Of a stretch of DNA of 64,000 nucleotides, positions 7,204-48,216 are shown piece by piece. Made by a program: the position numbers and the translations under genes. This stretch comes from Astropecten irregularis. Its lineage: Eukaryota > Echinodermata > Asteroidea > Paxillosida > Astropectinidae. A model generated the notes under the pieces. That model was not told where the DNA came from, made no database searches, and saw nothing but the letters and a program-made list of their open reading frames with translations. Location: contig OZ020254.1 in assembly GCA_963971285.1 (NCBI GenBank), positions 7,006,001-7,070,000 of the forward strand. The letters are read 5' to 3'. Positions within the stretch are counted from its first letter, which is position 1; each line of letters opens with the position of its first letter.

Positions 7204-7427
7204 AGTGGACTTACATGTGTGTAAATCGATGACCAAGTACCACACTAACTGCTTCAAAGCGTCTTTTCCATATCATTTAAAACAGTAATATTCAATTGCT
7301 AGTAAAACATTAGTCAAATTCTACCAACAAATTGGCTAATTCTATAACAAAAATCACCTGAAGAGAATACATGTGATAATAATCAAACCACCAGCCTTTA
7401 GATATAAAAGAGTGTTCTGTATGTGTA

Positions 7428-7609: not shown

Positions 7610-7809
7610 CACTGGTATTTATATTCTTTGTAGAAAAGGGGGAGGGGTTGGTGTTTGAGAATCCCAAATGACCACTCAATGCCGGCACACAGATGGAAGT
7701 AAATCAAACACAAGCTGTGGAAATGGACTGTGATGGTTTTGTCTGTCAGTTTCTCTTGGGGAAGGAGAGAAGAGTGGGGGTGGGGTTGGGGTGGGGTAGG
7801 GTGAGCTCA

Positions 7810-7935
7810 CTAGGAGGGTTCCTGGCTATTTTCCTCTGGGTAATCCTGGATGGTGCGGTGAGCTTGTCGCAGATACTGGTGTTGCTTGTAGAAAACCTTG
7901 AGTGCTCCTTTGATTGTGACAAATGCTATGCCACC
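7810..7935 (-). CDS. MARCHF5: MARCH5 terminal coding exon 4
   Basis: Encodes residues 258-298 and a TAG stop at 7812-7810. It begins GGIAFVTIKGALKVFYKQ, matching the last hydrophobic segment and tail of vertebrate MARCH5, and ends with an acidic/polar tail (EENSQEPS). The acceptor is a long T tract ending CTCTTAG. Confidence 0.95.
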   Translation of the reverse strand, partial: GGIAFVTIKGALKVFYKQHQYLRQAHRTIQDYPEENSQEPS

Positions 7936-12336: not shown

Positions 12337-12723
12337 TGTGGACGATGTGGAATCCTCAAGTGCAGACTGCAGGAATCTGTTGATATTCACAAAGACTTCG
12401 CACACATCAACACACACATGCTTCGCACATCTCTATGCACCTGGATATGTCTCAGTCATTTCTGGAAACAGAAAAAGTTAGTGAAATGGAACGTTAGCAA
12501 AGCTTCATAACCGTTGCCAAGCGCCTTGCCTGTCTGGTTCCTATACACTTAAATAACCCTAGTCATGTTAGGCATAGTACTTCTATCTACTAGTCTACAT
12601 AGCAGAACTTACAGTCACTAACGTTAGGAACCACTTATACACAATTAGGGCCTACCAAAATAATTAACTGTTTAGACAGTTTGGTATTACGATCATCGCA
12701 ACATCTTTTAGTTTTACTGTGTT

Positions 12724-12862
12724 AAGTTGCGATGACCGTTACCCTTGGTCTGACCATGGGGTCTGACATGGGGACTTTCCCCAGTCAGTCCCCATGTCAG
12801 AGCAAGGCCAGTCCCCATGTCAGACCAAGCAACATGAGCAAAGGGTTACGATCATCGTAACT
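12724..12862. mobile_element. Hairpin element with internal GTCCCCATGTCAGA repeats
   Basis: The outer arms GTTGCGATGACCGTTACCC and the inverse GGGTTACGATCATCGTAAC enclose an inner inverted pair (TCTGACATGGGGAC / GTCCCCATGTCAGA, the latter occurring twice in tandem). Another direct TTACGATCATCG copy lies just outside at 12687. Non-coding. Confidence 0.7.
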
Positions 12863-12874
12863 AAACTAACTTTG

Positions 12875-12995
12875 GCGTTACCTCAGTTTAGTACACTCAG
12901 GTTAGCAGCTGGTACTGAGACCCAGTCGTAGTAAGTTAGTTTACTGTAGAAGCTGGGTACCAGCTACTCTGAGTGTACTAAACTGGGGTAACCCC
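12875..12995. mobile_element. Hairpin MITE GGCGTTACC family, copy 1
   Basis: 121 bp. The left GTTACCTCAGTTTAGTACAC and right inverse GTGTACTAAACTGGGGTAAC arms are about 40 bp. Inner CAGCTGGTAC / GTACCAGCT also pair. Related to 57559-57706. Confidence 0.75.
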
Positions 12996-13280
12996 CTAAC
13001 TTTAGTTAGTGTTTACTTTTAATTATGCTTTTGTATGATCGCTCTTGACGTTTTGTCATTGACCCATTTCATAACTTAAATTAGGCCTAACCAAACTTAA
13101 ACTTAGGTTATTTTATAAACTAGAAGTAGTCAGTACAAACGACACAGTCTGGCTGGAAACGGACGGTAGGCCTACTCAAGTTGCCCCGGCATGGGGGAGG
13201 AAGGATCAATACGTTACTCGTTAGCAAGGGAAGGGCGGCCTCCTCCAGCTCCACTACAGTCTACCCATAGGACTAGGCCT

Positions 13281-13437
13281 ATAAGCCTTATCGCAAATAC
13301 CGCCTGGTTGATTTTGGACAATGGTGGAAAGGCACCATGGGAAGGAAAAAGGGGCATATTTTGTACCTTTTCCCTTCCCACAGTGCCTTTCGACTATTGT
13401 CCAAAATCAACCAGGCGGTATTTGCGATAAGGCTTAT
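13281..13437. mobile_element. Near-perfect 157 bp hairpin
   Basis: The outer 42 bp of each arm (13281-13322 and 13396-13437; begins ATAAGCCTTATCGCAAATAC) are exactly inverse. The next ~28 bp pair with a few mismatches, leaving a loop of about 11 nt. The lack of decay suggests a recent insertion, gene conversion or selection on the fold. It lies ~1 kb upstream of MARCH5 exon 1. Confidence 0.85.
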
Positions 13438-14539
13438 GGTCAAATTGTGTGTACGTACGTCAGTGACGGTACGGAAATGATTTTCAAGAAAACAAATCGT
13501 GACAACAACAAAACTAAGCAAAAGTTCCCAACTTACGTCACCTTTGAATCATGACACCGCGGCTCCTAAGAAAACGGACAACATGAAATCCCCAAAATAA
13601 ACAATAATATAGGCCTAATTCATTTGATCACCTTTAATTTCTCAGTAGGACTAGGAGTAGGAGTGTTATTTCTCAATGACTGAATGAACAGTACAGCGGT
13701 CGAGATTCTAGGTCCCAATATTCGGCTGCACTCTATTTCACCGTGCAAGAAGAAATACTCTACGGAGAGCCTAACTGTACGTCAATAATCCCAAAATAGA
13801 AGTACAGAAGAGAAGATCAATGAACTCTGTGTAGAGCCCTTAGCATTTGGTGGTGTCACACGGACAAATAAATTCCAAATTACGATCATTCATCATTGGC
13901 CTTATGACATGACAAATCAAGTTTTCTATGATATTATAGGCTGACGGTGGATTATTTTATACTAGAATTGAAATTCGCCCATTCTTAGTGCTTGTGATTA
14001 GTCGCGTATACACAGGATTTGTTCAAGGGAATGTGTATTTTTTTTTAAGTTGCGAGGCCATGGCGTGGTGTGCAAGTCCGGAAATTTTTGGATATTAGAT
14101 GCTCTCTGGTGCACTGCATTGTAGTATATTTCATTTCAGGGCCCTTTTTGATAGGTTTTTGCCGTGGAAATATGATGGGATTTGTTCTTTTAATTTTAAA
14201 TAATTTAGGATTTTACACCAATTTGACCCGGTAAATTTTCATATTTTTGAGATGGCAAGTTTGTTTTCATACCGTTTTCTTTTAGACGCAGTATCAAAAT
14301 AATCATTTCGGCATAAAATTTGTTTGAGCAAAATTTGAAACTATGACACAATAATAGTTTGCACCAGTTTTGAAGAAACACCGCCAATTTTTCGAGATCC
14401 AACCTACGTAGGCCCATTAATAATTGACAGGTGAATAATATATATTTTTTACAGTATATGGTTTCACCCGAACTCTCACCAAAAAGGAGCCTAGTTTCTC
14501 AGTGCATGATTTGAAGGCATGAAGCCGAATACAATGGTT

Positions 14540-15695
14540 GGTAAAGGTCACAGAACAGCACTCACACTTCGTCTAATCCAACATGTACATGAAATTATAA
14601 ACCTGTGAAAATTTGAGCTCAATCGAACATCTGAGTCACGAGAAAATAGTGAAAACCCCACTCAATTCTTCTTATAAAACATAAAAGATTAATGGTTTTG
14701 ATGGCTAAAATAGTATGGATTTACTACAACTAGTTAGTATCATTCGGGATCTTTGGGCCCAGATTTAGATGATAATTATTATATCACATTTTGTAGATTT
14801 CTCCTCTGTATATGGGTCCGTTATCGTAAATGACAACATAAGCAATGTACAACCACCGTCTCGTGCTCCAAACATAGGCCTGTTGAAACGTGAATGTGTG
14901 ATAACAAGTTACCCCCCCCCTCCCCCATAACAAAACAAATGAGACACAACTTTTCAGTTGTGGCAAGTCTCCCCCTTCATTCATAATTTCTAAAAGGAAG
15001 TGAGCTGTTCAGTGAAAAAGAAAAATACTGCATAATACTCGCACCTGCCGATTGGAGTGTATATAGTTTGCACACAATGTCCGAACCCTTCACAAAAAGA
15101 CTCCCCGTATGAACCATTGGAAAGTTGACTGCACACCTGTCAATGAAACTTTTGTGTGGTCTTACATACAAGGCCGTGCAATCCAAGTTCGGCAGCTGCT
15201 TCTGACTGTTCCACAGCGACTGAGTGAACAGTTGGGTATAATATCAAAGTTAGAAAGTTTTGTTTCGAGTAAATTTGGATGACGTCATGATGACGTTGAT
15301 CATTAGCCAATTACAAGACTTCTTCAAATTTGCTGAAGTGTTTAAGTAAGGTTCAGTACAGGATTGGTACCGTAACATACCCAAACATAAACTTGTTCAC
15401 TGATATAATTTTAGCCTATACTTTCAGGGTATAGAAACATGGTGCTGGTAGAAACATACCGTTAAAATAATTCCGCCTGAAATGCTGTATTTATCAGAAA
15501 TTAGTCAAACAAAGACCGAAAACAGTGAGTAAGATCGAAACCATTCTTTATGTTGTATAAGAAAAATATGAGTCGGTTTTTCGTTATTTTCTTGTGACAC
15601 ATATCTCCGATTGAGTTCAATTTTTCACAGATGTGTTATTTTAAGTACATGATATAGATTAGACAAAGTGTGGGTGCTGTTCTGTGGCCTTTACC
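14540..15695. mobile_element. 1.16 kb unit with ~120 bp inverted arms
   Basis: The left arm begins GGTAAAGGTCACAGAACAGC and the right arm is its inverse ending TGTGGCCTTTACC. Homology continues inward about 120 bp (CTGTGAAAATTTGAGCTCAATCG, GAAAATA). Nested inside at about 15420-15525 is a block matching the middle of the 42599 and 62057 elements (TTTCAGGGTATAG...GGTAGAAACATACCG). Confidence 0.65.
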
Positions 15696-16645
15696 GATCC
15701 TGTATTATACTTTTTGTGCGGAGTAGAAAACCACGCGGTCTAGAAAACCTGTATGACCAGCTTTGTGGTTATTTACCACAATCACAACCTCGGATTTGTT
15801 GAAAGTTTTAAATATTTTTTACAATCATAATTATTTGAGGAGATGGCGAGTTTATGTTATCTTAGTTGGTAGTTGGGTGTTTGTGTGTTTTATTTTTGTG
15901 TGAGGAGAATACTGCATCGAAATACACGAATGACTTCAGTTAACCATTCCGTGAAATGAAGAACAGCTATAGCGTTCCACGTTGTCAGCCCGTTTGAGGC
16001 TTTGCACAGGTCACACATTGTAATCAACATTGTATAAAATCATTTCACGATGATTATGCATTAAAAGCTTAACCAATTATTGAAATAAAAAAAGTTTGGG
16101 TTATAAATACTGTAGTTTATAATTAATGTTATTAAACTTTTCAGATTCAATTATTAATGTGATGATGATTCTTAATGATGATATACGAATAATGTGACAG
16201 GAATACTGGACGAAAGACAATTATTAGTTTTGCAATTGGAAATGTCCAGTCATCGGAGGTGTAATTTACATAACGACAATTATAGGCTCAGTTTCGTATG
16301 ATGACAAGCATATAGACATAACTCAGGTTATCATAACTCCGTGACAAGATTTTAAAATTCTTTCACCGTGGCAACCGCCGGAATCCGTTAAAGACCCCTC
16401 TGAAATTCGAAGAATGATTTGAGACGTATCGAAAGTGTCATATATGGCCACGCTCGGAATGCATACCACCACATTTTTCTTTTCACCGTCATGTAATTTA
16501 AGACCATTATAGACTGAGGTATAAGCTTTGACCATATTGCTACAGGGTATGGGCTCTGTCGTCCAAAGGTTCATGAATTTCTGACCACACGATCAGTTCG
16601 TGCTTGGCTTTGTCCGAAAGTTGTTGTTCTCCTGTTCATAGTACC

Positions 16646-17085
16646 ATGGCCCCGGACGACGACACGTACGGAACCGCTGCAGGGTTTCCTCGTCCAGTAC
16701 ATTTCTCAGCTCAATTTTCTTTGTGTTTCCTGCAAGCTTTTATAAACATCTTTTATGAGGGTAAGCCTTCAACCCCCCCCCCCCCCCAGTCCGACCCCCA
16801 AGTCGTCTGCCAGGTCTTTGTTAGACTAGTAATAGGTCGCGTGCGGGCCACGCGAGCAGACAACCATCTACTGAATGGTCCAATAGACGGGTAACATTCT
16901 TGTGGTTTTTGTCTTGGCCAGCTCTTAATTCCCAGATTTGTGTCTTCAGTGGTATAGATTGTTGTACCCTTCACTTTCCCTTTTTTCTGTCTCCTTTGTT
17001 TTCTTTGTCCCCAAAACTTCAGCCCATCCTCGGCAGTGCAAGCTCACCGTGGACAAGGGCGCCAAGATATCGTCAAGCATTTTAG
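16646..17085 (+). other. Weak candidate two-exon coding segment, unrecognised
   Basis: A first segment 16646-16760 starts with ACCATGG (good Kozak), encodes MAPDDDTYGTAAGFPRP and on, and ends TATGAGG|GTAAGC in phase 1. A second segment 17023-17085 follows a T/C-rich acceptor ending TTCAG. Read in the matching phase it is open for its whole 63 nt (HPRQCKLTVDKGAKISSSIL), ending before GTATTG. I recognise no family and found no convincing third exon before the CPEB gene. It may be an alternative transcript start, a lost gene, or chance. Confidence 0.2.
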
Positions 17086-19092
17086 GTATTGAATGTTTAT
17101 AGTTTATATTCGCACATGTAAAAAAAATCATACAATTTTCAACTTCCTTAAAATAAAATCTGAAATTGTACACTGGTATAAAGTCTCAGAGTTAGGAGGG
17201 CCTGATGCGTTTCGTTCATAGCAGGATCTTTATCGAAAGGCAGCTTTCGTCGAAAGTTGACGGCCCATTACTTGTATTGGTATAAAAGTCTCCATGATTT
17301 GAACATCTGCCTCCAATATTGAGTTGAGGACAGCAACAAAAGCCAGGTATATAATACATGTTGGTTGATGCGTTCCGTATTTGGGCATGCAAGCACGCTC
17401 TGCATTGGCCCCCAAACTGCTCCCTGGAATATACAGCGTGTCCTGCAGCTGGGGGTTCCCCTATAGGCCAATGGCATGCGGAAGCTGTTTCGAAACTGCC
17501 GGATTTGATTTGAGTACGAGCATGATTTCTTGCTTCCACTCCATATCGAGTATTTTTTTTTTTTTGCTTTTAGCCTAAGACAAGACAGAGATAAGAAAGA
17601 TGGGTAGGTGGGAAGGAACTTGGAAACAATAATTATTTCCTCTAAAAAGAAGAAGAGGAAAGAATTATTCCGAGTCAATACAAGTTAATTAAACTGATGC
17701 CGCAAACCGAAAACGTCGAGTCCTGAACTTAATATGATTCAATTTTTTTGGCAATCCTAAGTCAAGCCCAAAAGAATGTTTCACAAATGCCATACAAATA
17801 AATAACTTACATTATTATACACAAATTCACAAAGTTACTGAGAGAAAACAAAGTACAAATTTTATTTTTTATTAATATACGGTATAGGCCTATAAATGTA
17901 CATAAAAGTGGGAAGGCAGGGGAAATGCCCCACCCCATAGCTCTAACATCAACAAAACAAAACATTAATTAAAAAAAATACAAGTAATAAAAAAATGTGT
18001 GAAATTACATTTTGCACAACTATCACAAAGTCCCACTCAAACTTCGAGGTTAGAATGAGAAAATCTCATAGTAGTACTCCACTACTCCAGCAAAACTTGA
18101 GAGCCCGAAAAAAAAAAAGGGCCGGTAGGAAAGTCAAAAATTATAAAATGCTTAGATGTGATTTGTACATCGTTGTTTGTGAAATTAAATCAAGACATGA
18201 ACATTATTTCAATATTTTGTAGCAGTCGTAGTGGAAATCAAGATTGTACAAAGATTCGGCCATATCAAAGATCGGCGGGCACCCGCATTACTCTAATCCA
18301 GTAAAATTGGCTGGCAAACTACTTTGGCGCCTTTTCACGTAGTGGTTGTTATTTATCCCAGCAGACAATGTTAAGCAAGAAGGTCGTCACAAAAAGAACC
18401 CACAGGTAAGCCCTGGCACGAGCGGATCCACAAAAGTGTGAAACAACTTTTCTCCCCGACTATTGTCCAAATCGCTCCATTCATGAACCTTTTGTGGACA
18501 AAGCGCCCTCGTTGGTTTATGTGAGACAGTAGCAGCTGGCCCGGCGTTGCCGCTCGTGACCGCCAACTGTTTCTAATACCCCATTTCTCGTTCAAAATTA
18601 GCAAAAATAAAAATAGTCTTTCAAAGACATTGATCAAATAATTAAAATCACCCGTTGACAAAAGTTTGAAGGAGTGCATACTTATCATAAATTACTGTCA
18701 AATAATTTTGAAAAAATGGACGTTGTCGGTCATAAAATGAGGTAAATATTGTGCCCATGAATTGCTTACCATAATTGATGAGATGGGATTGAGAAACCGC
18801 CAATGTCACCAACAGTTTGTGTATGTCATAGTGCAACCAGCCGACTGCAGAGAGCGCACAGCACCAGTATGAACACATTTTTCACCGGGGTCGCATAAAC
18901 AGTCACCGTATGCTTACCGCGTGTACGTGTGTACCGGCGTATTTGCGGATTTCACAGGGAAACGGCAAGCGGCTGCTCGGTGAAACAGCTGGACATGAGA
19001 GGTACACTTGACGAATTTGACCATATTTTTTGATACAGAAAGCAAATTAACAGTGTAAATCTGGTTCACCAAGGCCGACTAGATCTTGCTAA

Positions 19093-20388
19093 ATGGGGGA
19101 TTTTGGTCTGGATGTTCATCCACACGATACGAGGGCCCTTTCACCGCTGGAATTGTACCCGAATTCGAGCACCGTGTCTTTGTTTTCTCCCGAGGCGCTA
19201 ACGATGCAAGATGACATGCTGATGGAGAAAACTGCGAGCAAGCAGCACATTCAGCAGTTATCGCCGAATCCAGATCTTAGCTCCGACAACTCGGACGACT
19301 TGTCACCTGGTTCAAAGTCAAAATCGGGTGATTCGAGTCCGCCAACTGTCCCAGACAAGAACAAAGCTCAATCGGAGGTGGCTCCCAATTCAACATCGGC
19401 TGCAGCCGCAGTGGGTCTTTTACAGCTACAGCAGCACATCGGGTACTACGCACAAGCCCAGGCCCATGTCCAAGCACAAGCACAGGCTCACCAACAACAA
19501 CAGCAGCAACAACACCAGCAGCAGCAGCAGCAGTTTGTCCAGGACGTGAACCCCGGCAACTATATCAACAACGTAGCTGCCAGCTCTGGAAACAGTGGCG
19601 TGAACTCTGTTGTAAGTTCAAGCAGCTTCACCAGCACTCCCAATCTCTGGTCAACTGCAGGGGCAGCTGAGGAATCTTATTTCCAAGGGCTGCCGACCAT
19701 GAATGGCACAATGCAGTTTCAGAACTTTCCCCGCAACTCATCACCACTCTTTAGTCCGAATGCCACGTTATCCCCACAGCTTGGGATGCAACAGCAGCAG
19801 GCTGTCCAGCAACGCCGTAGCCTACAACCTCACCAGACAGCAACACAGCAGCAGCAGAATATTTACCAGACAGCAACCCAGCTACAACAGGCTCAAGCTC
19901 AACTGCAGGCACAGGCTCAGGCAGGAAGTCTTTACCTCCAAAACAAGCAGTACACAGCAAACTGGAATTCCGCAGCTGCTCAGCAAACAGCAGCAGCAAC
20001 GTCATGGCCATCACCACAGGGACACCAACAAGGAATCCAGCCTTCAGTCCAGCAGCAGCAACAGCAAGGGAATCCATGGGGAACGGTGGGCTCTCCCCCC
20101 AGTGGCCCAGCTCCAGCTTTAGCTAACAACATTCAGCAGCAGCAGAGGCGCTCCATGCCAACTGTCCACAATCAATCGGGCACCCAACCCTCAATATCAC
20201 CCCAAAAAGGCCGTGTTCTTTCCAACCCCATTATCTCGCCACCCAAGTTTCAGCGAAGCACATCGCTGCCAGCAAAGAACTACGGACATCAGTTTCCATC
20301 GGGCATGAACACAGCACCGAGCTTAGAATTCACCAGAGCTGATGGAAAGAGAGGGGACGCCAACACAAACACACTGTTCCCATACCAG
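19093..20388 (+). CDS. CPEB: CPEB exon 1: Q/A-rich disordered N-terminus
   Basis: Encodes residues 1-432, phase 0, donor CCAG|GTGAGA. Q7-H-Q6 lies at 134-147, an alternating QA stretch at 120-132 and 266-277, and further Q runs near 233-256 and 319-325. Ser-Pro sites and basic RRS sites (241-243, 352-354) are candidate kinase sites. Reading past the donor gives 44 intron-encoded residues and a stop, so this exon alone looks like a 476-codon ORF. It is clearly GC-richer than its surroundings. Confidence 0.95.
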
Positions 20389-35300: not shown

Positions 35301-38300
35301 TATTCCCGTCTCCATTGATATTGCAGTACATGTATACATATGCAAATACTGTCAGTGGGCATCTCATCAGATGTGGGCTGTTTGCTTTGCTATATAAAAG
35401 CATTGTATGAAAAAATAAAGAGTGGAAAACAGCTGGCCGTGGTGCACGTAATGCATTTGTGATTAGCATTTAGTTGCTAGGGAAATCCAATTGCGTACAT
35501 GTATGCAAAGGGCAGGGCGTCAATTTGTAGACAAATTTCTTCTGCATGCCCAATGCCCATGATGCAGATGTACAAATACATGTACTTTAATAAAAATTGG
35601 CCAAAGGCATTGGAATCATTCGTCCTCCGTAGATTTAACACAAAGTATACAATAAAAGAAAGACACATGGAGCATTCATTTACATAAAAATATAATCAGT
35701 TTGGAATCTTAGATTTTCATTAACAATTTGTTTTAGTGTGTTGGCCAATGTATACATAGTTTGTCCATTTACAACCTGCTTCATTGAAAAGAAAACCTAC
35801 ATTGTATATGTATGTAATATATTAGCCAATTTTGTAATCATTGTTTTTACATGTCATTTATGCTATTAGCAAATTTAACAGACAGCACTAGTATCATAGT
35901 ATGTGAATACTAAATTATCATACACAGGGACATACAATATGTATGATTATCTTTAGTTCATTGTTAGGTGATGATAGTGAATCAGTGATTGTTATGATTC
36001 GCCTTGTAGCCAGCAATTGATGAATCTCTCTGCAGTGCATCTCTTCTCTTGAAAGCTTGTAAGAACTCTGCTGCATGTTTCTACATGTACGTATAGGCAC
36101 GTCATGGTTCTTAGCCAGAGGGTTGTCTGGGTATCTCTTGTGCAGCCGGTTTGCCGCCTGGTACACCTGATTCATCTGTTTCATTTACATACATCGCTAT
36201 TCTGCATGAAACATGAAACATTTCAACAACCTGTTTGTCGGTTCACTCAAAATGTCCACACCTCAATTCTCAGTTCCAGCCCTTTAAACCCTGTAGCACA
36301 TGATTGAGTTATCATTCATATAATTAATTTAATCAATCTTCCTATTGATCTGAGAATTGGCGGGACACATTTTGCGCATACATTTTAGAAAACAAACTGA
36401 AATTTTTTTTATTTTATGTCCTTGCAGTCTTTCAGGGTATATGTACATGTACATGTAGCTATTCTGAAGATATGTGTTTTATGGTGGCATAGTAGGTACA
36501 TATGTACTTGTATTTGTATATGTCTGTGCTCGTTCTGTGATTTCATCCAAACCATGAATTAATTCAATTAATTAAAAAAAGAGACTTTCTACTGATGCGC
36601 CCATGGGGACAATGGAATGTTCTCCAGCCTTGATAATGACATGATCTTTTTAATAATATATTCTAATCAATCTTTTTTAATTTGTTCTCTGTTTGTTTTG
36701 TTGTTTTGTTTTTCATTTGTAGATGGTCTCCTTGATGATGGTCGGCATGATCAGATTGTCCCATCCCTAAGCTCACCCGGTCATATTTCACCGCGATCGA
36801 ACCCGGACTACGGCATTGAGAGGTTCTCCAGGAAGGTGTTTGTTGGTGGCTTGCCGCCCGATATTGACGAAGGTGAGTAGCTCTGCATGCTGGAGTGTGC
36901 GGGCCAAATTAAGATAATGATCTCGCTCGTGACCTGTGTATTTCTGTTCAAGGAGATTACTCTCATTATCTATTAAGTAAAAGGCGAGGGAGGAGAAAAC
37001 AAAAGACTATAACAAAACCTGGGAGAAGAAATTGAAGACCAGCCTACTTGACCAATCAAATTGATGCTAGTGGGCTATGTTGACCTATGATTGGACGAAA
37101 CTGGACAAAATGATCCAAATGTTCATTTTTAAATACAATTCTACTTTGGAAACAAATCCTTTAATTTCTTCACTAGTGTGATTAGGCCCTACAATTTACA
37201 TGTAAAAGAAAATATTTGTGTAGCAGTAAAAATGTGTCAAATTCATTTTAAAATATAATCAATTTTTTAATTTTGTATGATTTTTTATTTAACTTCCAAA
37301 AGCTGTGACAAAATTTGTAAACTCAGGTTTGATGGGCATGTATGTTTATATCTAATTGGTGCATTCTGTATAAAGCTGAACCACTTTTTCCTTGAACAGA
37401 AAAATCAGTGGCCCTCACGGTCACTTATATGCCAAAGTCAGCTTTCATTGTCAAGAAAATGCCCTTACACCTCACTTCACATGGGGGAAAAACATAACTT
37501 AATGCCTGTGTCAAATTAAAAAACACAGGCCTACCTTAATCCAACCCAAATTAGATTTTGCACATCTGCATGTCAGTTGGTTTTACACTCGTTGTAAGCG
37601 GAGAGCCAAAACCAAATTAGGCTCAACTTCAGATAATTTTTTTCCCCTGAAATCAAGAGAAAAACAAGAAAACTGTTCAATTTTGTGGCTGCTTATAAGA
37701 GCCCCTCCTAACAAGAGAAGGATAGAATGCTGGCCTCTGGCTAAAGTGCCCTTGAAATGCTCAGGTGTAGATATTAGGCCTAGAAAACCTAGATGTGTTT
37801 TTATTTTTAAAGGATGTTGTTGATGTTTTCAGTAACACTCATCATCATTTATTTCCAAACATCACTCAAAATAACTAGTAAAGTTGCAATTTCATTACAA
37901 TATTAAAGGAGGATGAAGGGTGATGGCATGGCAGGAAGCATAGGCTTATATTTGACCAGGCCACCATGCTTTTTTACAATTATTTAGATAATAATAGCTA
38001 AGTTGATCATTAAGGTGCTGCAAATAATGTATTTGTTTGTTGTTGGTTTTCAACCAAGAAGCCATGCTCTTCCCCTTATCCAATAAACACGCTGGCTTAT
38101 ACAGTTGTTTACGTATAATTATGATGGTTACAGTGCACTTGTCCCACTGTCAGTGTACTATCTCAGTGTTGCTAAAAATGGGAATTCATATTTTGGGATG
38201 TGTTCTTAACGGGATCCTTAATGCCAGATCTCTGCCGGTCTTGGAGTTTGTTTTCATTGTGCAGATGCATAGCATACTCTGATTGTATTGATTGGGAAAG

Positions 38301-41300
38301 CTATGTAATTAATTTTCATGGTCAATGATAAAGGGTCACCTTGATTGGATAGTATTGTGGTTGTAGACTCAGATATCTAGCCATGCTTGCTTTGCTGGAG
38401 GATCAGTGGTACTACCGGCATCTTTAAAAGGGGCTTGCAGTGTACATGTTTGCCGTTATAGAACATGTTTTTTTTTCTCCTTGTGTAAGCAAGTACACTT
38501 GAATTAATCTTCTTAGTTTCTGGGATATTTCATTACATGTACATAGAACCTTTTCCTGTGTATCAATTTCATTAGGCGTATAAGATACTCATATGAACAT
38601 TTATCAATGAACATGTACTATCAGCCCAAAGAAGTAATTTATATGTTTAAAATGTTTTGACAAAACAGCATTTAAAGCGTGTCGCACAAAAAAGGTCACG
38701 CAGTGCTTAAGGAGAAGTGCATGAGGGATAGTCTTATGAAATCAGGGTACACTTCACGCCATCTTTGATCAGTTTTGAGGCTTGATTCCTTTTAACAAGT
38801 TAACTGTTTTAGAACACAAACGGATAGGCCTACCAACAATCACAAAAAAAAATTTTTCAGTACGGGCGTTTCACAATAGTGCGCCACCATGAGTTTGCAA
38901 CCGTTGGACAATTTGTCGACAAACTGCGCATCTTTCCACATGCATAGTTTGTCGACAAAATTAATTCCACTATTGTGAATCACCCGTATTGATCTCACGA
39001 GAAATTTTCTAGACTCTCTTGTTCACTCATTTTTATTTTTAGATACATGTCAAAAGATTTAGAGCTTAATGATATGCCCAGCTTTTATTACATAGACCTA
39101 CATATAAATTTATATGTACAGTTTGTGCACGTACAGTTTCTTGCTGGTACTTCCATTGAATTATGGGTAAGCATGGTACAGTACATACATACATGTATAT
39201 GTATTATTGTACAAAGATACAGTAAACAAAAAAAGTGCCTTCAACATGTTCAAGGTCATCTTGCGTGAAATTAAATGGAAATTCTTAAAAAATAATAGGC
39301 CCTAATAATAATATTTGGTAATAGATAAAAATAAAAGAGTAAAGACAAATCGCTTCAAATTTGTTTTTTCCTTTTGTAACATTTTTGCAGAGGAGATCAC
39401 TGCCAGTTTTAGACGATTTGGCAGTCTAGTGGTGGACTGGCCCCACAAAGCAGAAAGCAAGTCTTATTTCCCACCAAAAGGTAAGCCCAATATACCCATT
39501 CCAAAGTGAATTCAATGTGACCTATCCTATTACATATTCTGCATTTGTTTGTCACTGTCTGGGAGCTTTGCTCATACTTGAATTCAGTCTCGTAGAGGTC
39601 TCAAATATCATTGATCCAACCGTGTCCTTATATTGATGCGCCCTTCTCCTTCTCAGTGTCCCATTCTGTTTCTTGTTATTAACCCCCAGAAGGGCGGGGG
39701 GAGAAGGGGTCGTCGTCTAAGAACATTTAAAGGAGCGTCAAAGTTCCAATCTGTACAAATCCAGAGCGTGTTCTGTCAATTTGACAATTACATGATTGCA
39801 ATGTAGGCCAAGGTGTACGGTATATGGTACATGTACGTCAAGCCTTGCAAGATGGAATCCTGAGTGATAGCCTAATGGGTCTTGCGATAGTAAGATACCC
39901 CCCAAGACGCTACCTAAAAGGAAACTTGTGTATCTGATTGCAGGGTTGAAGGGCTGCCGTCAACCATGACGGTATTAGTGCCTAGCATTAAGGCAAACAC
40001 TCTACAACCATTTGGTATGCAAGTGATATGCTGCTGGCCTCCGTAACATGTAGTTTGGGCTGTGTCATATGAGACAGAGAGACTGGCCTGTAATCTCGGG
40101 AAGCATCGGGTAGAATGCAGAGATGGGGCCTGTGATTTGAATTTGGGGGACTGGGGACTGAGAGACTGGGGCAATTCCATTTCATAATCACATTGGTCTG
40201 CCCTAGCCAGAATTTGACATGAGAAATATAAACGCAAAGGCTGTGAGAATTATGTTCCTTTGTTAACTCACATCTCAGGGCTTCAATTTACACACATAGT
40301 ATCCAGGACAGAATTTGTGATATTTTTAGTTAACACAGATTCTGAGTAAGGTTTGATAATGTAAAATTTACAATTTTATATTTACAATATATAATATTGT
40401 AAATATAAAATTTAAAAAAGTTATGTAAAAATTAACAAAATATTAAAAGAATTTGTAAGCACTGTGTGTAAAATGTTATGAAACATGTCTGATGCATTTT
40501 GTGAAAGGATTCATTCCATTTGTATTTTGAAATCAGTGGCTAACCCAATGGTTGAAATAAATGAAACCAGAGTACATGTACATAACAAATGACTTGTCAA
40601 AATTGCTGCACAGTTGAAGGAAGAAAAATGCTGTTATGAATTTAAGTCATAACATTTTCCTCATTTTAATGGCCTGCACTTTCCAACTCTACTAATGGCC
40701 GATACTGTTTTTCCCCCCAGGTTATGCATTCCTCCTGTTCCAAGATGAGCGGTCTGTGCAGGCACTGATCGAGGCATGTATCAAGGAGGAAGACAAGCTT
40801 TATCTCTGCGTCTCAAGTCCAACCATCAAAGACAAACCCGTAAGTTAATCCTCACCGAGACTGCCAAACGTATCCACTATGAAATTGTATACTTTGTCTA
40901 TTATATTTTTACATGTGAAAATCTACTCCAGTGATGCAGCCTACATATATAACCTTTAGTCTCATTGAAGGCATAGCTGCTCAACTGAAGCACCGTACTG
41001 TACGTGCTATATAGAAATGTATGCATGCAGAACCAATTAGAAAGCTAATTTATTATGCAGCTTGGAGGCCATTAGCGTTGCCGTCTGTATATTCATACAC
41101 AAGATTAAGTATCTACCGGTGCTCATTCAGAAAAAAAAATGAGCAAACAAAAAAAGGCTTACTGAAAGATTGGATATTATGTGCTAGGCATTAAAGTCCA
41201 AAATGGAAATTGTCAGAAATGGTACTGTATTTTCTTTTCCAGACAAATTTGTTGAAAGAAAAAATTACTGAATTTTGCTTGAAAATAAATTGACGCAAAT

Positions 41301-44300
41301 CCACCAAAAGAAATTAAAGGGAACAAAGGGGGACAATTTTGTTGCCATCTATCACTTGGTCATAATTAAATTCAGGTAAAAAAATACATTGTATTCTAAG
41401 GTTTTTGTTAAATTTTCCAATAATTTGAATTCAATTTGCGCTCAGCTGGTGGGGTAATTTACAGCTGATCATCCCAAAGCTGGTCTCTAGCCGCCAATCG
41501 TTCTACCCGGGCATGTACATGTATATTTTATGAATGGCCACCACCCTCAGTATTGTACATGTGTGTATGCATGCATGGTTGCAGGATATTGAGCCAGTGG
41601 CTCATTTGTCATTCCCAGAATGGACTCGTTCAGATGAGATTCCTGACCGCGTGTCTTCTCGTGCCCCCGTCACGATCCACAAGAATGTTGACCTGTGTTC
41701 CCTGTCCGTGTCCGCCTCTTGAAAGCAATCCCTGCGTGATTCATGCGGGATGTCTCTTGCCCGCCAGTCTCCCTCCAAGGAAACACTAGTCAAAAACAAA
41801 CAGCGTTGCTCAGCTTAACGCGGCCGTTCTCACAGGGATGAATGATAATTTGAAAAGGATATTCTGTATGAGAAAGCTATGCCTCACACGTTATTTTTAC
41901 TCCAAAATTACTTGATGAGCTGGGCTCTTGTCTGTACTAAATATAGGTACTAAAATGCAACGTAGAGATTCTACTGATGCTTAAATTGACGCACTGTTTT
42001 TATCTGAATGTATTTCTGTCTTGTCCTGTCTGTCATGTAAAGAAAAATAGATTTTTATATGAATTGAGAATTAGCTTGATTGAATACAAGAGATGAAAAT
42101 TGTATTTGTTACATGTAGGCAGTGGGTATGACGTACATTCATATAAAGTACAGTTACACTTGTACCTGTACTTTAATGGTCATTAAAAATAGCAAATTGA
42201 CAGTTAAAATGTCTATTTTATCAGTTACTATTGTGTCTTGTGTCTTGTAAAATACGTCACATATCTATTTCATGCTAAACCTGTGACATCCATGACAGAT
42301 GCCTAGTAAAAGAATAAAAAGTGGTCACTGTACTGTGCATGTATTTTTAGAATACATGTACATGTATGATAAAAATATGGTTTTTATTTGCAGATTACAC
42401 GATGCGAAATGCACAAATTATGGCTGTTAAATTGAATGGGAGGAGTTCTGTGCAACGTTTTTATATACATACATGTACCTACAGGTACCGTATGGCAGCA
42501 ATTTAGTTAAAACTAAGTTAAAACTTAATTAAATAAATATTAATGTTTGTTAGGCAGCATTTCCTTGGTCTGTTCCAATCAAGGATCATTTCTTTAAAGG
42601 TTGTATCATACTTTGGTAAGAGACCAAAACAGAAATGTTCACAGATTTACATATCACTTTCAGGGTATGAAGATGATGCTGGTAGAAACCTACCATAAAA
42701 ATTGTTCCGCCTGAAATGGTGTATTTATCCAGAAATTAGTAAAACAACGACCGAAAATCTTTTTGATCTTTTAAAAGATCAAAAATAAAAGAGAAAAGAC
42801 TTAAGAAATACCAAGGCAGTTTTTCACTGTTTTCTCAAAAAGTGGGCAACGTATGGGACTGAAATCTTCACAGATGATTGTTACTGTATCTGTCTTGGTA
42901 TTTTTGCCCATGAATTTGTATTTCTTTGATAAAAACCAAAGTATGATATTACCTTAAAGGACAAGACTGATTAAATGACTGTGTCAGCTGATTCTGTAAC
43001 TGTTATATTTGTCTGGATTGCAGGTCCAAATACGTCCGTGGAACCTTGCTGACAGTGATTTTGTGCTGGATGGTTCGCAGCCTTTGGACCCCAGAAAGAC
43101 CATTTTCGTGGGAGGAGTGCCGAGGCCCCTTCGAGCAAGTGAGTTTTTTAGTGGTTGTTTTTTTTTTCAGGTCAATGTTTTTCCCTTATGACACTGCACA
43201 GAATATTTAATTGCTTTATTGGATAACACTATCTCCATATGACAATCTTGCCAAGATGCATATTTTTGGACTCAGCATCCCAGTTTGTAAAACCATCAGA
43301 TATTCACACAGCGGCATCACATACATGTCCACAGAAGACAATAAGATATATAACAAGATGCTGAGATGCTTTTACGACGCTGCCCAATTAGTCAGTGTTT
43401 GACGATTGAAGATACTTGGCAAAACAACCCAAGGGCCACCTGCGTCTTGTGCAAATGAGGAGGCTGGCTGGAGAGCTTAGTTTTTTTTTTGATCAGGTGT
43501 CTCTGTGTTTGTTGTCCGTCATACCGAGAGTAGTCGTATCCCTTTGCTCTCGGCTAAAAGTAAAAGAAGCAACAAAAAAAAGGGGGGGTGGCCCGCCGTG
43601 CAGACAAGTGATACAAAGTACAGGCAGCCTAGTGCAGTTTTCCCTCTATTAAACTGGTTTGGACATGGGGCACGCGTGGAAGTCATAGGAAATCAATTAC
43701 CTGTTTCCTTCCTCAATCCACCTTGATACAGCTGTGGTCTTCCCCTAGTTGGCCTGAGTCATTTGGCATGTTCAGCTTATGGTATACGGACGTGCACGTA
43801 TACATATAGGATATCCCATAATGCAATTACATCCTGCCTAAATGTACAGTATGTCTGAGTATGATTGGGGTTCAGTTTGGGGGGTGGGGGTACTCCCCCC
43901 CCCCCCCCCCCCCAGCCTCTTCCTCCAGCCAGAGATAAAGAATCATGAATTATAAAGCGTTCACTTTCTGCAAGATTTGTCAAATGATACAAACCAAAAA
44001 GAAGAAATTAAAACAAAACAAAATGCTCCAAAACTTGAGTGGATTCTTCATTGTCCAAGTTTCCTGCCCCAACATTTCTATCCATTTTAGTTCCTCTTTT
44101 ACAGGATCTGTGCTTTGACAAAAATATTCCACACAATGGCAAAAATATCCAAGCATAATGGACGGTGATGAAGTACAAAATAAGAGCGTTTATATCCCCT
44201 TTCTATTTTCGTATTGGTGGTTAAAATACCATACAGTTTCCGTCGGCAAACAAGGAATCCTTGCCAGGTCCTTGGATTTACTTTCTTTCTGAGCTAAAAA

Positions 44301-47300
44301 CAGCCACAGAGAGAGGCCAACAATGACGTCATTAAGCCTGTCCATCAGAAATGTTCCATAACAATTTTCCTGGAAGGTTTATTCCTGGCTGCTGTTGCCT
44401 TTTCCGCTGTGGCTGCTTAAGAAAAACGAATTTCATGAAATATTTAAGGAAGATCGTGTGACATTTCACAGGAGTTTGTGAGAGCAGTGTTCCAATCTTT
44501 TGTACAGAAATAAATTACAGCTTCTACATGATTTTTCTGTGCAACCCCCCCCCCCAAAAAAAAAAAAAAAAAACCAAACCGATGGTACTTTGCAGAGAGG
44601 CAATTCTTTGGTAACTTGCATTACATGTTAACAGACTTTGACTTATTACATGATCAATCATTATCCTGTTCTTGTCCTGGGCCCAATTTCATGGAATCCG
44701 TTACCGTTAGAAAAAATTCTTCGCTTACGATAGCAAACTTTTTTTGGTTATGGTTTGCGTATTTCACGGAAGAGATTCCTTTTTGGTAATGGTAAGCAAG
44801 GAATTTGTGCAGAATGCATACGACAGCACGTTAGCAGAAAATGATCACAGTCACCCGAGAAATTCTTCGCTAACCGAAAGGTCTTGCTTACGGATTCCAT
44901 GAAATAGATTTCACTCGTAGCAGTACCCGTAACGGATTCCATGAAATTGGGCCCTGCTCTTACTTGAACCACTCCAAAGGTGGATAATCATAGGGCCTTT
45001 ATTAAATGGAGGCTTAGACTCAGGCTCCACTTCTGCCATCCATATGCTGAAAAAAAAAGGTTGTGGTTTTTCATTGAAGCTGAAGCTCTGTTTTTCTTCA
45101 GATAATCTATTTTTGAACCGCAGTCAAAAGCCTCCATACCCGATACCCGTTACCCGTTATTTTAGTATGGATTCACAAAATGGTGCCTTAGCCTTAGCCT
45201 TAGCCTTAGCCTGTGCCTCCTTTATGAAAATGTCCATAGACAGATAGAACCAGTTTGGTGTCTCATATTTGACTTAATTGCATAATGTTTTTGGTTCTGG
45301 GTTGGGAAAGAAGGACAACATTTTTGTATCATATGTTTAATGCCAGGACTTCCCTTAATAATTTGTGCATGAATTTGAAATTGTCTTGCTGTAGCATCTC
45401 CAATGCTGTTTCTTAACTCAATGTTTACATCATTCCATCTCTTCCCTGTCCTTCCAGTTGAGCTGGCTATGATTATGGATCGTCTGTATGGAGGAGTGTG
45501 CTACGCAGGCATTGACACGGATCCAGAGCTGAAATATCCTAAGGGGGCTGGCCGTGTGGCTTTCTCTAATCAGCAAAGTTACATTGCCGCAATAAGTGCC
45601 CGCTTCGTTCAGCTACAGCATGGTGATATTGACAAGCGGGTAAGTGCGGGCTCTTAATGCAGGTGTTTTCATTTTTTTTTTCCCCGCTGCTCTGTTCTGT
45701 TTTGCACTACAAACCGAATTACTTTGCTAATTTTGGTCTTCAGTCTGCTCTTAGGTACAGCGTAGGAGGGAATACTGCTCTCCATTTTTCATTTTCTTTC
45801 TCTCATTTGTACTGTCAAAATTTGTCGGCTTATCTTTGTTTGTGTGCTGGGTACAATTTCATTCCACTTTCGTTCTCTCCCCCGATGCCTACCCCACAAA
45901 TGTTTTTGTTCTTCTGGTGGATGATCCACCTGCACATTTTTTGTTCTAGATGAGTTTTTTTGGGGAGAGTGGGTTGGGAGAGTGGTTTGACATCGGCCAA
46001 ATTTATGGCACTGCCACCCACACACGCCCTTTAACATCACCCACTACTTAATTCAGGATCCCATACACTGTCGCCACACACACACGCACACACACTGGCA
46101 TGTATTAACCCTAGGCAAGTGCAGGCACAGTAGACATAAAAAACTCCAATAAATAATGTCACATGTTAAGCACATCGGCTCCACTGTCGTCGTAAATGTT
46201 ACACATTTCTTGCCGATAATGAATGAGTTTCTTCTCCGTATGACATGGCATGATGCGAACTCAACAGAAATTTGATTTTCAAACTAATATCATCAGCTCG
46301 GCAAGGGAAACCGCTTGATATGTTTTTTTCTTTTATTATTTTGTGACTATTAGGTTTCCTGTTTTCAAGTGGAAATATAGGAATTCATTTGAAGTCATTT
46401 ATTCTTGATGCGCCATATGGACAGTCAAAAATGTTAATTTCTTTTCAGTCCCTCCACCCACGCTACATGTAATATATCTCACACCGCCATACCCCCATCA
46501 TGCAAAATTCAGCGCACGCAGGCACAAGAAAAAATATTAACGGTTGACTGCAAAGTATAGTAGCTTGTACACCTGACATACTTTTTGCCATTCTACACAG
46601 CAAGTCTGTGGAGGTGGTCAGTTTCCTGTGAATGAAAAGCCCCTGTTACATTAATAAAATAAACGTAATAAACATGGAAAGAAAATAAATATCATTCCAA
46701 AAAGAGCAAGGCCGGTTCTTCTTTGTTAAGGGCACATGCATGGGAGAAAAGTCTATAGAAATGTTTGAAGGCTGGGAACCAAGGCAACGAAGGCAGGTGA
46801 AATAAAAAAAAACTGCTGGATTTTAATCAAAATGAAGAATCTTTTAAGTATAATATTTATTTCTCATATGAAATGTATTGAACAAAAAATAAAAATAAAT
46901 TTAATATTTATGTTTATGTCATGCTGTTTCTTTGAAATAATTATACATTCTGTACATTGTGTAATTACACTGAAATGATAATTTGGAATGATATTTATTT
47001 ATGGATTATGGAAGGACAAATATTATTTTATATATTTCTTGTACGCGCATTTTGCCCTAGAATGTAGAAAAACAATTAAGATGCTGAAAGAGAGCAGCAG
47101 TCAAAATAATCATTGGTCATCTGGCCTGATAGAAAAAACAGTAAGACCAAAACCAATTGTGCTTGGATTAGGAATGGAGAAACCTAACCAATTTATGATA
47201 AACAAATACATTTGTCAGTTATTCAGTTGGCTAGCCAAATTTGTGGATGACTATTGAAGATAGGTTTTGATATACTGGTTCAGTCCACTATTGTTGAATC

Positions 47301-48216
47301 CTGTGTGGGGATATTGTGTAACTTTAATACAAGGTTGGTTGTAGTCAGTTGATATGGTCTGGCACCCATAGACTAGTCCGTGATCAATACTCGTTCAACA
47401 AGCTCATGTGTGTGCCTCACGTCGTGTCAGTACGTAGGAGCCTTTCTATATTCTCCCGTTCCCAGTCAAAGAACACTGCCTGCAATATTGTACAGAGTCT
47501 GCAAAGGGTATTGATTACCAAGAAATTGAGCAAGTGCTGGTGTGGAGGCATTGTATGGCATTAGCCATGAGATCAATAGGAGTTAGATTTATAACTTGAG
47601 CACATGGTTTATATAAATTTCCCATCTTGTTTGTATACGTGCTCGCAGACCGTTAATAATAACTTATCACAATGCTACATGTATAGAGTGATTGAGCTGT
47701 CTGGAGAATTCGATTTTGTTTTTCCTACAAGTCATAATGTACGCCTTGGATGGCAATTAAAAGGGCTACAAACTGAGAGTAGCATGGGAATAAATTTTCT
47801 TACCCAATATGGATTTAGGTGACAGATTTGCCGAGTCTGGAGGATTGGTTATAATGCTAGTATTACACTTTCTTGCTCCGAGGGTCTTTGAAATAAACCA
47901 TGAGATCCATGTAAATTGGAACATCATATACTGTCATGACTGTAGACTATGACATTGCATTGAAGAACTTGTTTTTGGTCTTTTGTGGCAGGTGGAGGTG
48001 AAGCCGTATGTCCTGGATGACCAGATGTGCGATGAGTGCCAGGGTGTCCGCTGTGGAGGCAAGTTCGCCCCGTTCTTCTGCGCCAATGTCACCTGCCTCC
48101 AATACTATTGTGACTTCTGCTGGGCTACCATTCACGCCCGCCCTGGACGCGAGTTTCACAAACCCCTAGTCAAGGAGGGTGGCGACAGACCCAGGTCAGT
48201 TCCTTTCCGATGGTAA
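19093..48216 (+). CDS. CPEB: CPEB2/3/4-class cytoplasmic polyadenylation element-binding protein (orb2-like), 8 coding exons
   Basis: Exons 19093-20388, 25731-25857, 36723-36872, 39391-39480, 40721-40839, 43024-43138, 45458-45639 and 47992-48216 join to 2,304 nt and 767 aa. All junctions are GT-AG with matching phases. Residues 1-432 are low-complexity and Gln/Ala/Ser-rich. RRM1 runs about 509-595 (RNP2 [11 protein letters not shown]1 KGYAFLLF) and RRM2 about 617-697 ([16 protein letters not shown]). The ZZ zinc domain is C706, C709, C714, C723, C728, C733, C736, H741, H749. The RRM-ZZ region is close to identical to vertebrate CPEB2-4 and not CPEB1. The family binds U-rich/CPE 3' UTR elements and represses or activates translation in germ cells, oocytes and neurons. 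A TAA sits in frame directly before the ATG, which fixes the start for this first exon; an upstream coding exon spliced inside is not excluded. Confidence 0.97.
20389..25730 (+). other. CPEB: CPEB intron 1
   Basis: 5.3 kb, GTGAGA...TGTAG. It contains one tRNA-derived SINE with flanking duplication (25292-25424) and otherwise unique AT-rich sequence. In mammals an intron of CPEB3 carries an HDV-like ribozyme. I did not recognise such a fold here by eye. Confidence 0.9.
25292..25424 (-). mobile_element. tRNA-derived SINE, copy 3, with target-site duplication
   Basis: The tRNA-like core (minus, about 25420-25356) has an intact box A, but box B is damaged (TTTGAATCC) and ~10 nt of the 3' acceptor side are missing. 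A 13-bp direct repeat CGTAATTTTTATA flanks it at 25279-25291 and 25425-25437, which supports retroposition of a ~133 bp unit. It lies in CPEB intron 1, 300 bp before exon 2. Confidence 0.75.
25731..25857 (+). CDS. CPEB: CPEB exon 2: linker ([12 protein letters not shown])
   Basis: Encodes residues 433-474 plus one base. The acceptor is TTTTGTAG|GAGCGT and the donor TCAT|GTGAGT, phase 1. The [12 protein letters not shown] segment looks like a short amphipathic helix. Open frame, canonical sites and exact phase match to exon 3 support it. Confidence 0.85.
25858..36722 (+). other. CPEB: CPEB intron 2 (10.9 kb)
   Basis: The largest intron, splitting the disordered region from RRM1, with phase 1 at both ends. 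It holds TACATG-type simple repeats (about 29923-29997), a relatively GC-balanced unique patch at 33200-33440, and long AT-rich stretches. No additional exon could be identified by eye, but phase-1 microexons of a multiple of 3 nt would fit here without disturbing the frame. Confidence 0.85.
29923..29997 (+). repeat. TACATG simple repeat cluster
   Basis: Runs of ATGTATGTATGTACATGTAC and related TACATG words. The same palindromic word recurs in short bursts throughout the window (for example near 36440, 42355, 48622). Confidence 0.8.
36723..36872 (+). CDS. CPEB: CPEB exon 3: start of RRM1
   Basis: Encodes residues 475-524, from GLLDDGRHD through [20 protein letters not shown] before RRM1 is typical of CPEB2-4. 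The acceptor is CATTTGTAG and the donor GACGAAG|GTGAGT, phase 1. It lies after a 10.9 kb intron. Confidence 0.95.
36873..39390 (+). other. CPEB: CPEB intron 3
   Basis: 2.5 kb of unique AT-rich sequence with one hairpin element at 38861-38988 about 400 bp before exon 4. No coding signal. Confidence 0.85.
38861..38988. mobile_element. Hairpin MITE (TACGGGCGTTTCACAATAGTG)
   Basis: 128 bp in CPEB intron 3. Ends TACGGGCGTTTCACAATAGTG[trunc] and CACTATTGTGAATCACCCGTA pair over ~20 bp. An inner pair AATTTGTCGACAAACT / AGTTTGTCGACAAAATT also pairs, so the whole unit can fold. Confidence 0.7.
39391..39480 (+). CDS. CPEB: CPEB exon 4: RRM1 core
   Basis: Encodes residues 525-554 ([20 protein letters not shown] and on). 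It is 90 nt, phase 1 at both ends, with acceptor TTTTTGCAG and donor AAAAG|GTAAGC. Nearly invariant with vertebrate CPEB2-4. Confidence 0.96.
40372..40412. repeat. 41 bp AT palindrome
   Basis: Two exact 19-bp arms (AATTTTATATTTACAATAT and its inverse) around a 3-nt loop ATA in CPEB intron 4, about 310 bp before exon 5. Confidence 0.85.
40721..40839 (+). CDS. CPEB: CPEB exon 5: RRM1 RNP1 and C-terminal half
   Basis: Encodes residues 555-594 ([20 protein letters not shown] and on, ending TIKDKP). The acceptor is a T/C tract ending CCCAG; the donor is ACCC|GTAAGT, phase 0. Confidence 0.96.
42599..42953. mobile_element. TTAA-flanked non-autonomous element, copy A
   Basis: 355 bp. Ends GGTTGTATCATACTTTGG / CCAAAGTATGATATTACC, flanked by TTAAA on both sides. 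A central perfect palindrome lies around TTTTTGATCTTTTAAAAGAT (~42754-42785). Closely similar to 62057-62410. The TTAA flank suggests a piggyBac-type target, but no superfamily is proven. Confidence 0.75.
43024..43138 (+). CDS. CPEB: CPEB exon 6: inter-RRM linker and RRM2 RNP2
   Basis: Encodes residues 595-632 plus one base ([20 protein letters not shown], then [17 protein letters not shown]). Acceptor GGATTGCAG, donor GAGCAA|GTGAGT, phase 1. The next codon becomes Ile633 where vertebrates have Val. Confidence 0.96.
43894..43913 (+). repeat. Poly-C tract
   Basis: About 20 C in CPEB intron 6, preceded by GGGGGGTGGGGG, so a G-rich/C-rich inverted pair is formed. Confidence 0.9.
44544..44573 (+). 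repeat. Poly-C/poly-A junction tract
   Basis: C run of ~11 directly followed by ~18 A. Similar C(n)A(n) junctions occur at about 59084-59098 and 63565-63590. Confidence 0.85.
44679..44954. mobile_element. GGGCCCAATTTCATGG-family MITE, copy 3
   Basis: 276 bp, ends GGGCCCAATTTCATGGAATC and its inverse ending TTGGGCCC. It is highly similar to the 10287 copy over most of its length and lies in CPEB intron 6. Confidence 0.8.
44993..45230. mobile_element. Hexamer-ended TIR element, copy 1
   Basis: Shares with the 61006-61314 copy (inverse orientation) GCCATCCATATG, GGTTGTGG, TTTTCATTGAAGCTG, ACCCGTTATTTTAG and GGATTCACAAAATGG. The right end carries GCCTTA repeated three to four times. It lies in CPEB intron 6. 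Confidence 0.7.
45458..45639 (+). CDS. CPEB: CPEB exon 7: RRM2 body
   Basis: Encodes residues 633-693 ([20 protein letters not shown] through HGDIDKR). It contains the RRM2 RNP1 motif GRVAFSNQ. Acceptor CTTCCAG, donor AGCGG|GTAAGT, phase 0. Confidence 0.96.
47992..48216 (+). CDS. CPEB: CPEB terminal exon 8: ZZ zinc domain and stop
   Basis: Encodes residues 694-767 and TAA at 48214-48216. It holds the cross-braced ZZ ligands CDEC, C714, C723, C728, CDFC, H741 and H749, and ends [14 protein letters not shown]. Vertebrate paralogues end with the same FRW core, so the C-terminus is complete. Confidence 0.97.
   Translation: MEVKPYVLDDQMCDECQGVRCGGKFAPFFCANVTCLQYYCDFCWATIHARPGREFHKPLVKEGGDRPRSVPFRW

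Follow-up and report, generated by a model that had tools for sequence, protein, structure and literature searches.

Does the head-to-head pairing of a MARCH5 gene with a CPEB gene in a sea star go back to the same ancestral locus as the human MARCHF5-CPEB3 pair, and if so, what has kept the genes together? We analyzed a stretch of 64,000 nt from Astropecten irregularis, hereafter the window (C18:7006001-7070000, where C18 is contig OZ020254.1), which carries MARCH5 on the minus strand and CPEB on the plus strand. MARCH5 presumably acts as a mitochondrial membrane ubiquitin ligase and CPEB as a regulator of mRNA translation, and the gene found on the far side of MARCH5 encodes the peptidase IDE. 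At 20.4 Mb, C18 makes up 4.3% of the assembly, which totals 475.7 Mb and comprises 168 contigs. We conclude that IDE-MARCH5-CPEB2/3/4 is very probably an ancient microsyntenic block on an NK-homeobox/HHEX chromosome, inherited from the echinoderm-vertebrate ancestor and duplicated in vertebrates, and that this stretch has probably been kept together for more than half a billion years. Which genes these are, how they are ordered and oriented, their copy number, and their linkage were read from the genome itself; that the block shares its descent with the human one, and how it was later duplicated, we infer from these readings. The comparison sets one invertebrate genome against the human gene order and strands.

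Gene models were spliced on GT/AG sites, and domains were identified with Pfam. The MARCH5 coding sequence was complete, encoding 298 amino acids (aa) without a frame break, and had an N-terminal RING-variant domain (Pfam RINGv, E=7e-13). Hydrophobicity rose above 1.3 in four regions, one of them borderline at 1.31, giving the RING-variant and four-span layout. The protein was identical at 195 of 264 positions (74%) to an approximate sequence of human MARCHF5, a value that serves as a lead to orthology; matches to PDB chains beyond chance were confined to the RING. MARCH5 was present as a single copy: four of five whole-genome matches fell in the gene itself, and the fifth was a weak RING-only match on C16.

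The CPEB gene runs from a first ATG at 19093 to a stop at 48216 on the plus strand. The spliced models end exactly at 7810 and 48216, the two stop codons, confirming the head-to-head pair described in an earlier sequence-only reading of this DNA; the start codons are 6756 bp apart. Pfam identified RRM_7 (E=2.3e-40) and CEBP_ZZ (PF16366; E=1.6e-20) at the C terminus of CPEB. The RRM pair was identical at 182 of 196 positions to a CPEB4 chain (92.9%) and at 99 of 201 to a CPEB1 chain (49.3%), and RRM1 alone at 90 of 101 to CPEB3 (89.1%). By these pairwise identities the gene belongs to the CPEB2/3/4 subfamily, the class to which it had already been assigned, and a CPEB1-like identity was rejected on its 49% RRM identity to CPEB1. 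A whole-genome scan for the CPEB zinc domain located two loci. One is the window gene; the other lies on C14, and an RRM exon 5 kb from its zinc domain was identical to CPEB1 at 31 of 43 positions, indicating a CPEB1 type. The RRM_7 scan added one place, C14:4111088, which on inspection by eye looks like a gene of the hnRNP A/B type. The CPEB set thus appears to be a pre-duplication one, with one CPEB2/3/4-type and one CPEB1-type gene, and the single CPEB2/3/4-type zinc-domain locus agrees with the earlier proposal that the pair predates the CPEB2/3/4 expansion.

The first recognised gene to the left of MARCH5 lies outside the window (C18:6987326-7004275, plus strand) and converges on MARCH5. 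Its fragments matched the structure 2g47 over three stretches (E=1.1e-55), all 15 chains listed being IDE, and Pfam gave Peptidase_M16_M (E=1.2e-21). The locus has an HxxEH-type exon, and of 20 IDE landmark peptides sought, 14 turned up, each on the plus strand and within 6987368-7004137; the sequences of the other six had been guessed. On these matches, the left-hand gene is a long M16 peptidase matching insulin-degrading enzyme. About 9.5 kb separates its last recognised frame from the MARCH5 stop. In this gap none of the seven open reading frames (ORFs) tested matched a Pfam family at E<=0.1, and a hidden gene was rejected on that basis, although genes with short exons could be missed.

Read in mirror image, the sea-star order IDE(+) MARCH5(-) CPEB(+) gives the human one, CPEB3(-) MARCHF5(+) IDE(-), which lies within the 10q23.32-33 series CPEB3-MARCHF5-IDE-KIF11-HHEX-EXOC6. 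The likeness to human 10q23 comprises the divergent CPEB-MARCH5 pair, the convergence of MARCH5 and IDE, and the presence of HHEX, KIF11, and EXOC6 on the same contig. The linkage that the sequence-only reading matched to human therefore held, and IDE adds a third member to it. In print, PMC9926792 lists both MARCHF5 and CPEB3 for the hg19 interval 10:93,966,910-94,966,910, and PMC3688709 lists HHEX, KIF11, and IDE at one chromosome-10 locus. Unrelated neighbours that stay adjacent across phyla also characterize ancient metazoan microsynteny blocks, PMC8851819 being one example. No paper naming the trio was found in the literature searched, most subscription journals being outside its scope; the term 'synten' is absent from the CPEB-family papers PMC9465852 and PMC11965684, and PMC4134484 and PMC7205035 give lists in which the genes are simply named. 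Scans of viral contigs for MARCH5 and CPEB gave no relative.

Could the three genes have been joined independently in the two lineages? By simple arithmetic on an assumed 20,000-30,000 genes, uncorrected for the number of noticeable pairs, randomly ordered genes would place MARCH5 and CPEB head to head with a probability of ~3e-5 to 5e-5, or ~1e-3 if linkage is granted. Adding IDE at the other side in the right orientation lowers it to ~1e-9, or 3e-7 to 7e-7 with linkage granted. Coincidence draws on the use of a single invertebrate genome and on the human junctions IDE-KIF11 and BTAF1-CPEB3, both broken in the sea star, but three genes matching in order and strands, even at the more generous figure, make it extremely improbable.

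We then asked whether the wider chromosome shares this history, using four neighbours picked because they flank the human block. Three of the four were on C18 (chance of at least three, 3e-4): an HHEX/PRH homeodomain at C18:6380127, 607 kb from IDE (80.0 bits vs 37.3 for the next PDB chain); the EXOC6 Sec15 domain at 2.45 Mb, 4.5 Mb from IDE; and a KIF11 tail domain at 18.66 Mb (E=3.7e-5), 11.7 Mb from IDE, in an exon that we take to be a kinesin-5 tail. The BTAF1 domain was on C11, unlinked to the block. A homeodomain scan gave at least 100 matches in the genome, 14 of them on C18 (p ~1e-4, clustering ignored). All 14 were read, and four were compared with PDB chains: besides HHEX, C18:13691523 matched Msx-1 best (106.6 bits) and C18:13392420 matched Nkx-2.5 best (113.3 bits), and C18:1520711 was of TLX type, with 3a01 chain A, presumably Clawless, at 111.1 bits and TLX2 second at 85.9. 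Among the other ten, we take seven to be NKX3, LBX, NKX1, HMX, EMX, NKX6, and NOTO; three are unnamed.

The presence of several NK-type homeoboxes assigns C18 to the NK-linked (MetaHox) paralogon, and the likeness extends to HHEX, MSX, NKX2, and TLX-type homeoboxes on one contig with the single CPEB2/3/4 gene. Human CPEB2, CPEB3, and CPEB4 lie on 4p, 10q, and 5q, and these positions coincide with three of the four members of the paralogon. The paralogon is placed on human chromosomes 2/8, 4, 5, and 10 in PMC3112091, PMC2446394, and PMC2655272; by contrast with our grouping, CPEB has 0 occurrences in their main texts, and the assignment of CPEB2/3/4 to the NK-linked paralogon is our own. Because the contig carries genes of this paralogon, all three vertebrate CPEB2/3/4 loci probably descend from a locus of the sea-star type. 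The ancestral block would have sat on an NK-homeobox/HHEX chromosome and been copied by two rounds of vertebrate genome duplication, with CPEB retained on human 4p, 5q, and 10q and MARCH5 and IDE retained solely beside CPEB3. The earlier statement that CPEB3 kept the ancestral locus was thus too strong: human CPEB2, CPEB3, and CPEB4 probably all descend from it, and CPEB3 is the copy that retained the MARCH5-IDE side. A scan for BOD1, a gene on the CPEB2/CPEB4 side, gave no match anywhere and was uninformative.

How far the block extends was judged from 200 kb of sequence flanking the window, where reading frames were ranked by a self-trained codon score. As calibration, known MARCH5 and CPEB exons took ranks from 0 to 499 on the correct strand; one escaped the list, as short exons can. 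In a Pfam scan of eight neighbour fragments, the cut-off was passed for at least one family by IDE, by a phosphoglycerate mutase of the BPG-independent kind, by a PDZ protein, and by a C2H2 zinc-finger gene; a GTPase domain narrowly missed it, and three fragments gave nothing. The mutase and the PDZ protein lie left of IDE, and the GTPase-like and zinc-finger genes lie right of CPEB. The homeodomain core motif had no match in the 264 kb around the block, which together with the distance of KIF11 led us to reject adjacent KIF11 and HHEX as in human; an extension to BTAF1 was rejected on its C11 location. The conserved block is short, because BTAF1 is unlinked, the other neighbours are distant, and the flanking genes are not known as members of the human block.

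Several points weigh against an inherited block. With a single invertebrate genome, it is the improbability of the match that favours inheritance over convergence. Of the human arrangement, the papers cited confirm only the MARCHF5/CPEB3 co-interval and the HHEX/KIF11/IDE co-locus. Unlike in human 10q23, HHEX, EXOC6, and KIF11 stand 0.6, 4.5, and 11.7 Mb from IDE, and BTAF1 is on another contig. To our knowledge, the phosphoglycerate mutase, PDZ, GTPase-like, and zinc-finger neighbours have no place in the human 10q23 block.

What has held the genes together? We examined the space between the two start codons, taking the 264 kb around the block as context for CpG content and motifs. As the sequence-only reading had noted, nothing recognisable lies there: all four ORFs of >=100 aa matched no Pfam family at E<=0.1, and a hidden gene was rejected, with the reservation that short-exon genes could be missed. 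Between 13.0 and 19.0 kb, each of the six 1-kb windows had a CpG observed/expected of 0.72-0.96, vs 0.12-0.69 in the flanking MARCH5 and CPEB gene bodies, as would be expected of an unmethylated upstream region between methylated gene bodies. Over the 6-kb block it was 0.83, a value exceeded by 11 of 516 overlapping 6-kb windows in the 264 kb. Peaks as high or higher occurred elsewhere, at ~106-116 kb and at 142-151 kb (window coordinates); in the IDE-MARCH5 gap, the two 1-kb windows that span 2-4 kb reached 1.29 and 1.03.

The same space contains two inverted repeats that look mobile. A foldback at 13281-13437 has 72-nt arms, 93% complementary and 13 nt apart; its 13-base core word, with one mismatch allowed, occurs across the 264 kb only in these two arms. 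Plant-microRNA (miRNA) matches in Rfam at 13308-13410 were located on the foldback, scored below their families' gathering scores, and were rejected. At 14540-15695, stretches of 39 and 83 nt are repeated in inverted form at both ends of a 1.15-kb region, which has the look of a terminal-repeat element.

One explanation is that a bidirectional promoter or enhancers shared in this space hold MARCH5 and CPEB together, so that separation would harm at least one of the genes. The single contiguous block of high CpG that fills the space from MARCH5 to the CPEB start speaks for it, and we also counted in its favour the human MARCHF5 and CPEB3 start sites, which we take to be ~100 bp apart. However, the equal or higher CpG peaks elsewhere suggest that the block may mark two ordinary promoters, and it fits either one shared upstream region or two adjacent promoters; the 72-nt-arm foldback and the 1.15-kb repeat mean that it is not compact. 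Bidirectional promoter pairs are characterized by start sites within ~1 kb and a shared promoter; the start codons here are 6.76 kb apart. A shared promoter also does not explain the whole block, because the convergent MARCH5-IDE junction, which has no common promoter, persisted too. In addition, the Cpeb segment conserved bilaterian-wide is located in the 3' untranslated region (UTR) according to PMC10735318. We regard sharing of this kind as a tentative explanation, somewhat less likely than not, and the proposal that persistence itself pointed to shared regulatory DNA did not find support: the CpG block is its one sign, the repeats inside it look mobile, and the convergent junction is conserved likewise.

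A second explanation makes the genes bystanders within a long-range regulatory domain of HHEX or of CPEB itself, with enhancers in or beyond MARCH5 and IDE. Such a domain would account for both junctions together, and HHEX shares the contig at a distance of 607 kb; yet it is not adjacent, no homeodomain core motif occurs in the surrounding 264 kb, and KIF11 and EXOC6 are megabases off. PMC10735318 speaks for both sides, and the few human-chimaera conserved segments that it reports at Cpeb2/3/4 tell against a domain of this kind. We consider it unlikely.

We favour an ancient microsyntenic block that most likely persisted passively because its chromosomes rearranged slowly, with a common upstream region perhaps contributing at the divergent junction. 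That an upstream region serving both genes is a component of this persistence is suggested by the one contiguous CpG-rich block and can be held only tentatively. In a stronger version, the single CPEB2/3/4 gene belonged to the ancestral NK-homeobox chromosome beside MARCH5 and IDE, vertebrate CPEB2, CPEB3, and CPEB4 are ohnologs of the NK paralogon, and joint constraint has acted on the MARCH5-CPEB promoter block ever since the bilaterian ancestor, so that a mitochondrial ubiquitin ligase is coupled to a regulator of translation in neurons; this combination seems to us quite improbable.

The locus shows how the genes are arranged in an outgroup to the CPEB2/3/4 duplication and links the family to the NK-linked paralogon, and the loss of duplicate MARCH5 and IDE beside CPEB2 and CPEB4 becomes datable. 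The split of MSX into 4/5 vs 8/10, proposed in PMC2655272, predicts that CPEB2 and CPEB4 are sisters. The pair could also serve as an inexpensive natural test of whether ancient divergent pairs persist by shared control or by slow rearrangement.

Table 1. Features of the analyzed stretch, in window coordinates
Feature	Position	Strand	Basis
Part of the convergent MARCH5-IDE gap	1..7809		7/7 ORFs without Pfam family
MARCH5 coding region, 4 exons	12336-12257, 10203-9998, 9530-9046, 7935-7810 (stop)	-	GT/AG spliced model, Pfam RINGv, single copy
Divergent intergenic block, 6756 bp	12337..19092		CpG profile, ORF test, inverted repeats
CPEB first coding exon	19093..20388	+	Open frame to GT donor; 432 aa, 76 Gln, 29 Asn, 52 Ser
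CPEB middle exon, tentative	25740..25856	+	Coding score 6.3; resembles vertebrate CPEB3/4
CPEB exon, start of RRM1	36723..36872	+	Spliced model
CPEB exon, RRM1	39391..39480	+	Spliced model, RRM_7 scan
CPEB exon, RRM1	40721..40839	+	Spliced model, RRM_7 scan
CPEB exon, inter-RRM and RRM2	43024..43138	+	Spliced model, structure-chain comparison
CPEB exon, RRM2	45458..45639	+	Spliced model, structure-chain comparison
CPEB last coding exon, CEBP_ZZ zinc domain, stop 48216	47992..48216	+	Spliced model, Pfam
Probable long CPEB 3'UTR, end guessed from composition	48217..56000	+	Low G+C, T-over-A excess in 50-56 kb

The sole ORF tested in the probable CPEB 3'UTR (50146-50487) had only a sub-threshold Pfam match. 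This UTR contains a miR-26-type 8-mer, TACTTGAA, at 49120 and a miR-92-type 8-mer, GTGCAATA, at 52821; a single 8-mer per 8 kb is not significant. Regulation of Cpeb 3'UTRs by miRNAs is cited in PMC10735318. A CPEB3-type ribozyme resembling that of hepatitis delta virus (HDV) had no Rfam match up to E=1 within the window, and was rejected as a marker of this CPEB gene. PMC8233481 describes the CPEB3 ribozyme in mammals, so its absence here is expected.

A tRNA-Thr(AGT)-like sequence lies in a MARCH5 intron (8716-8788, minus strand; 39.3 bits, above the Rfam cut-off), and a degenerate stretch similar to it was seen by eye in another (~11925-12000); both are probably derived from a tRNA-derived short interspersed element (SINE). 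Motifs like the histone 3' stem-loop were detected on the minus strand in a MARCH5 intron (8066-8112; 39.4 bits, above cut-off) and in a CPEB intron (26250-26295; 24.4 bits, below cut-off). No histone gene was recognised near them, no search having been aimed at histone genes. Left of the window, a coding-like tandem repeat of the 'WLSLVQPGPAWSSLAQ' type at C18:6948387-6949041 is open in several frames at once.

Elsewhere in the genome, nine homeodomain matches within 0.45 Mb (C14:15365917-15816398), all on the minus strand, are probably the Hox cluster, on the same contig as the CPEB1-type gene. On a 16.3-kb mitochondrial contig, translated with the echinoderm code, COX1 was seen by eye to precede an ND4L-like frame, while frames resembling ND1 and ND2 run on the strand opposite COX1; this is the gene order of asteroids and makes a sea star probable. 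The 103-kb contig C131 has cox1 at 30000-36000 in an uninterrupted 552-aa standard-code frame, vs 10 TGA codons in the mitochondrial copy, and is probably a bacterial symbiont or contaminant. A partial cox1 with seven TGA codons on a contig of nuclear size (C25:9951047-9952018) is probably a nuclear copy of mitochondrial DNA. Finally, four homeodomain matches within one 3428-aa open frame (C9:18534639-18537542) suggest a very large multi-homeodomain protein, such as one of the ZFHX type.

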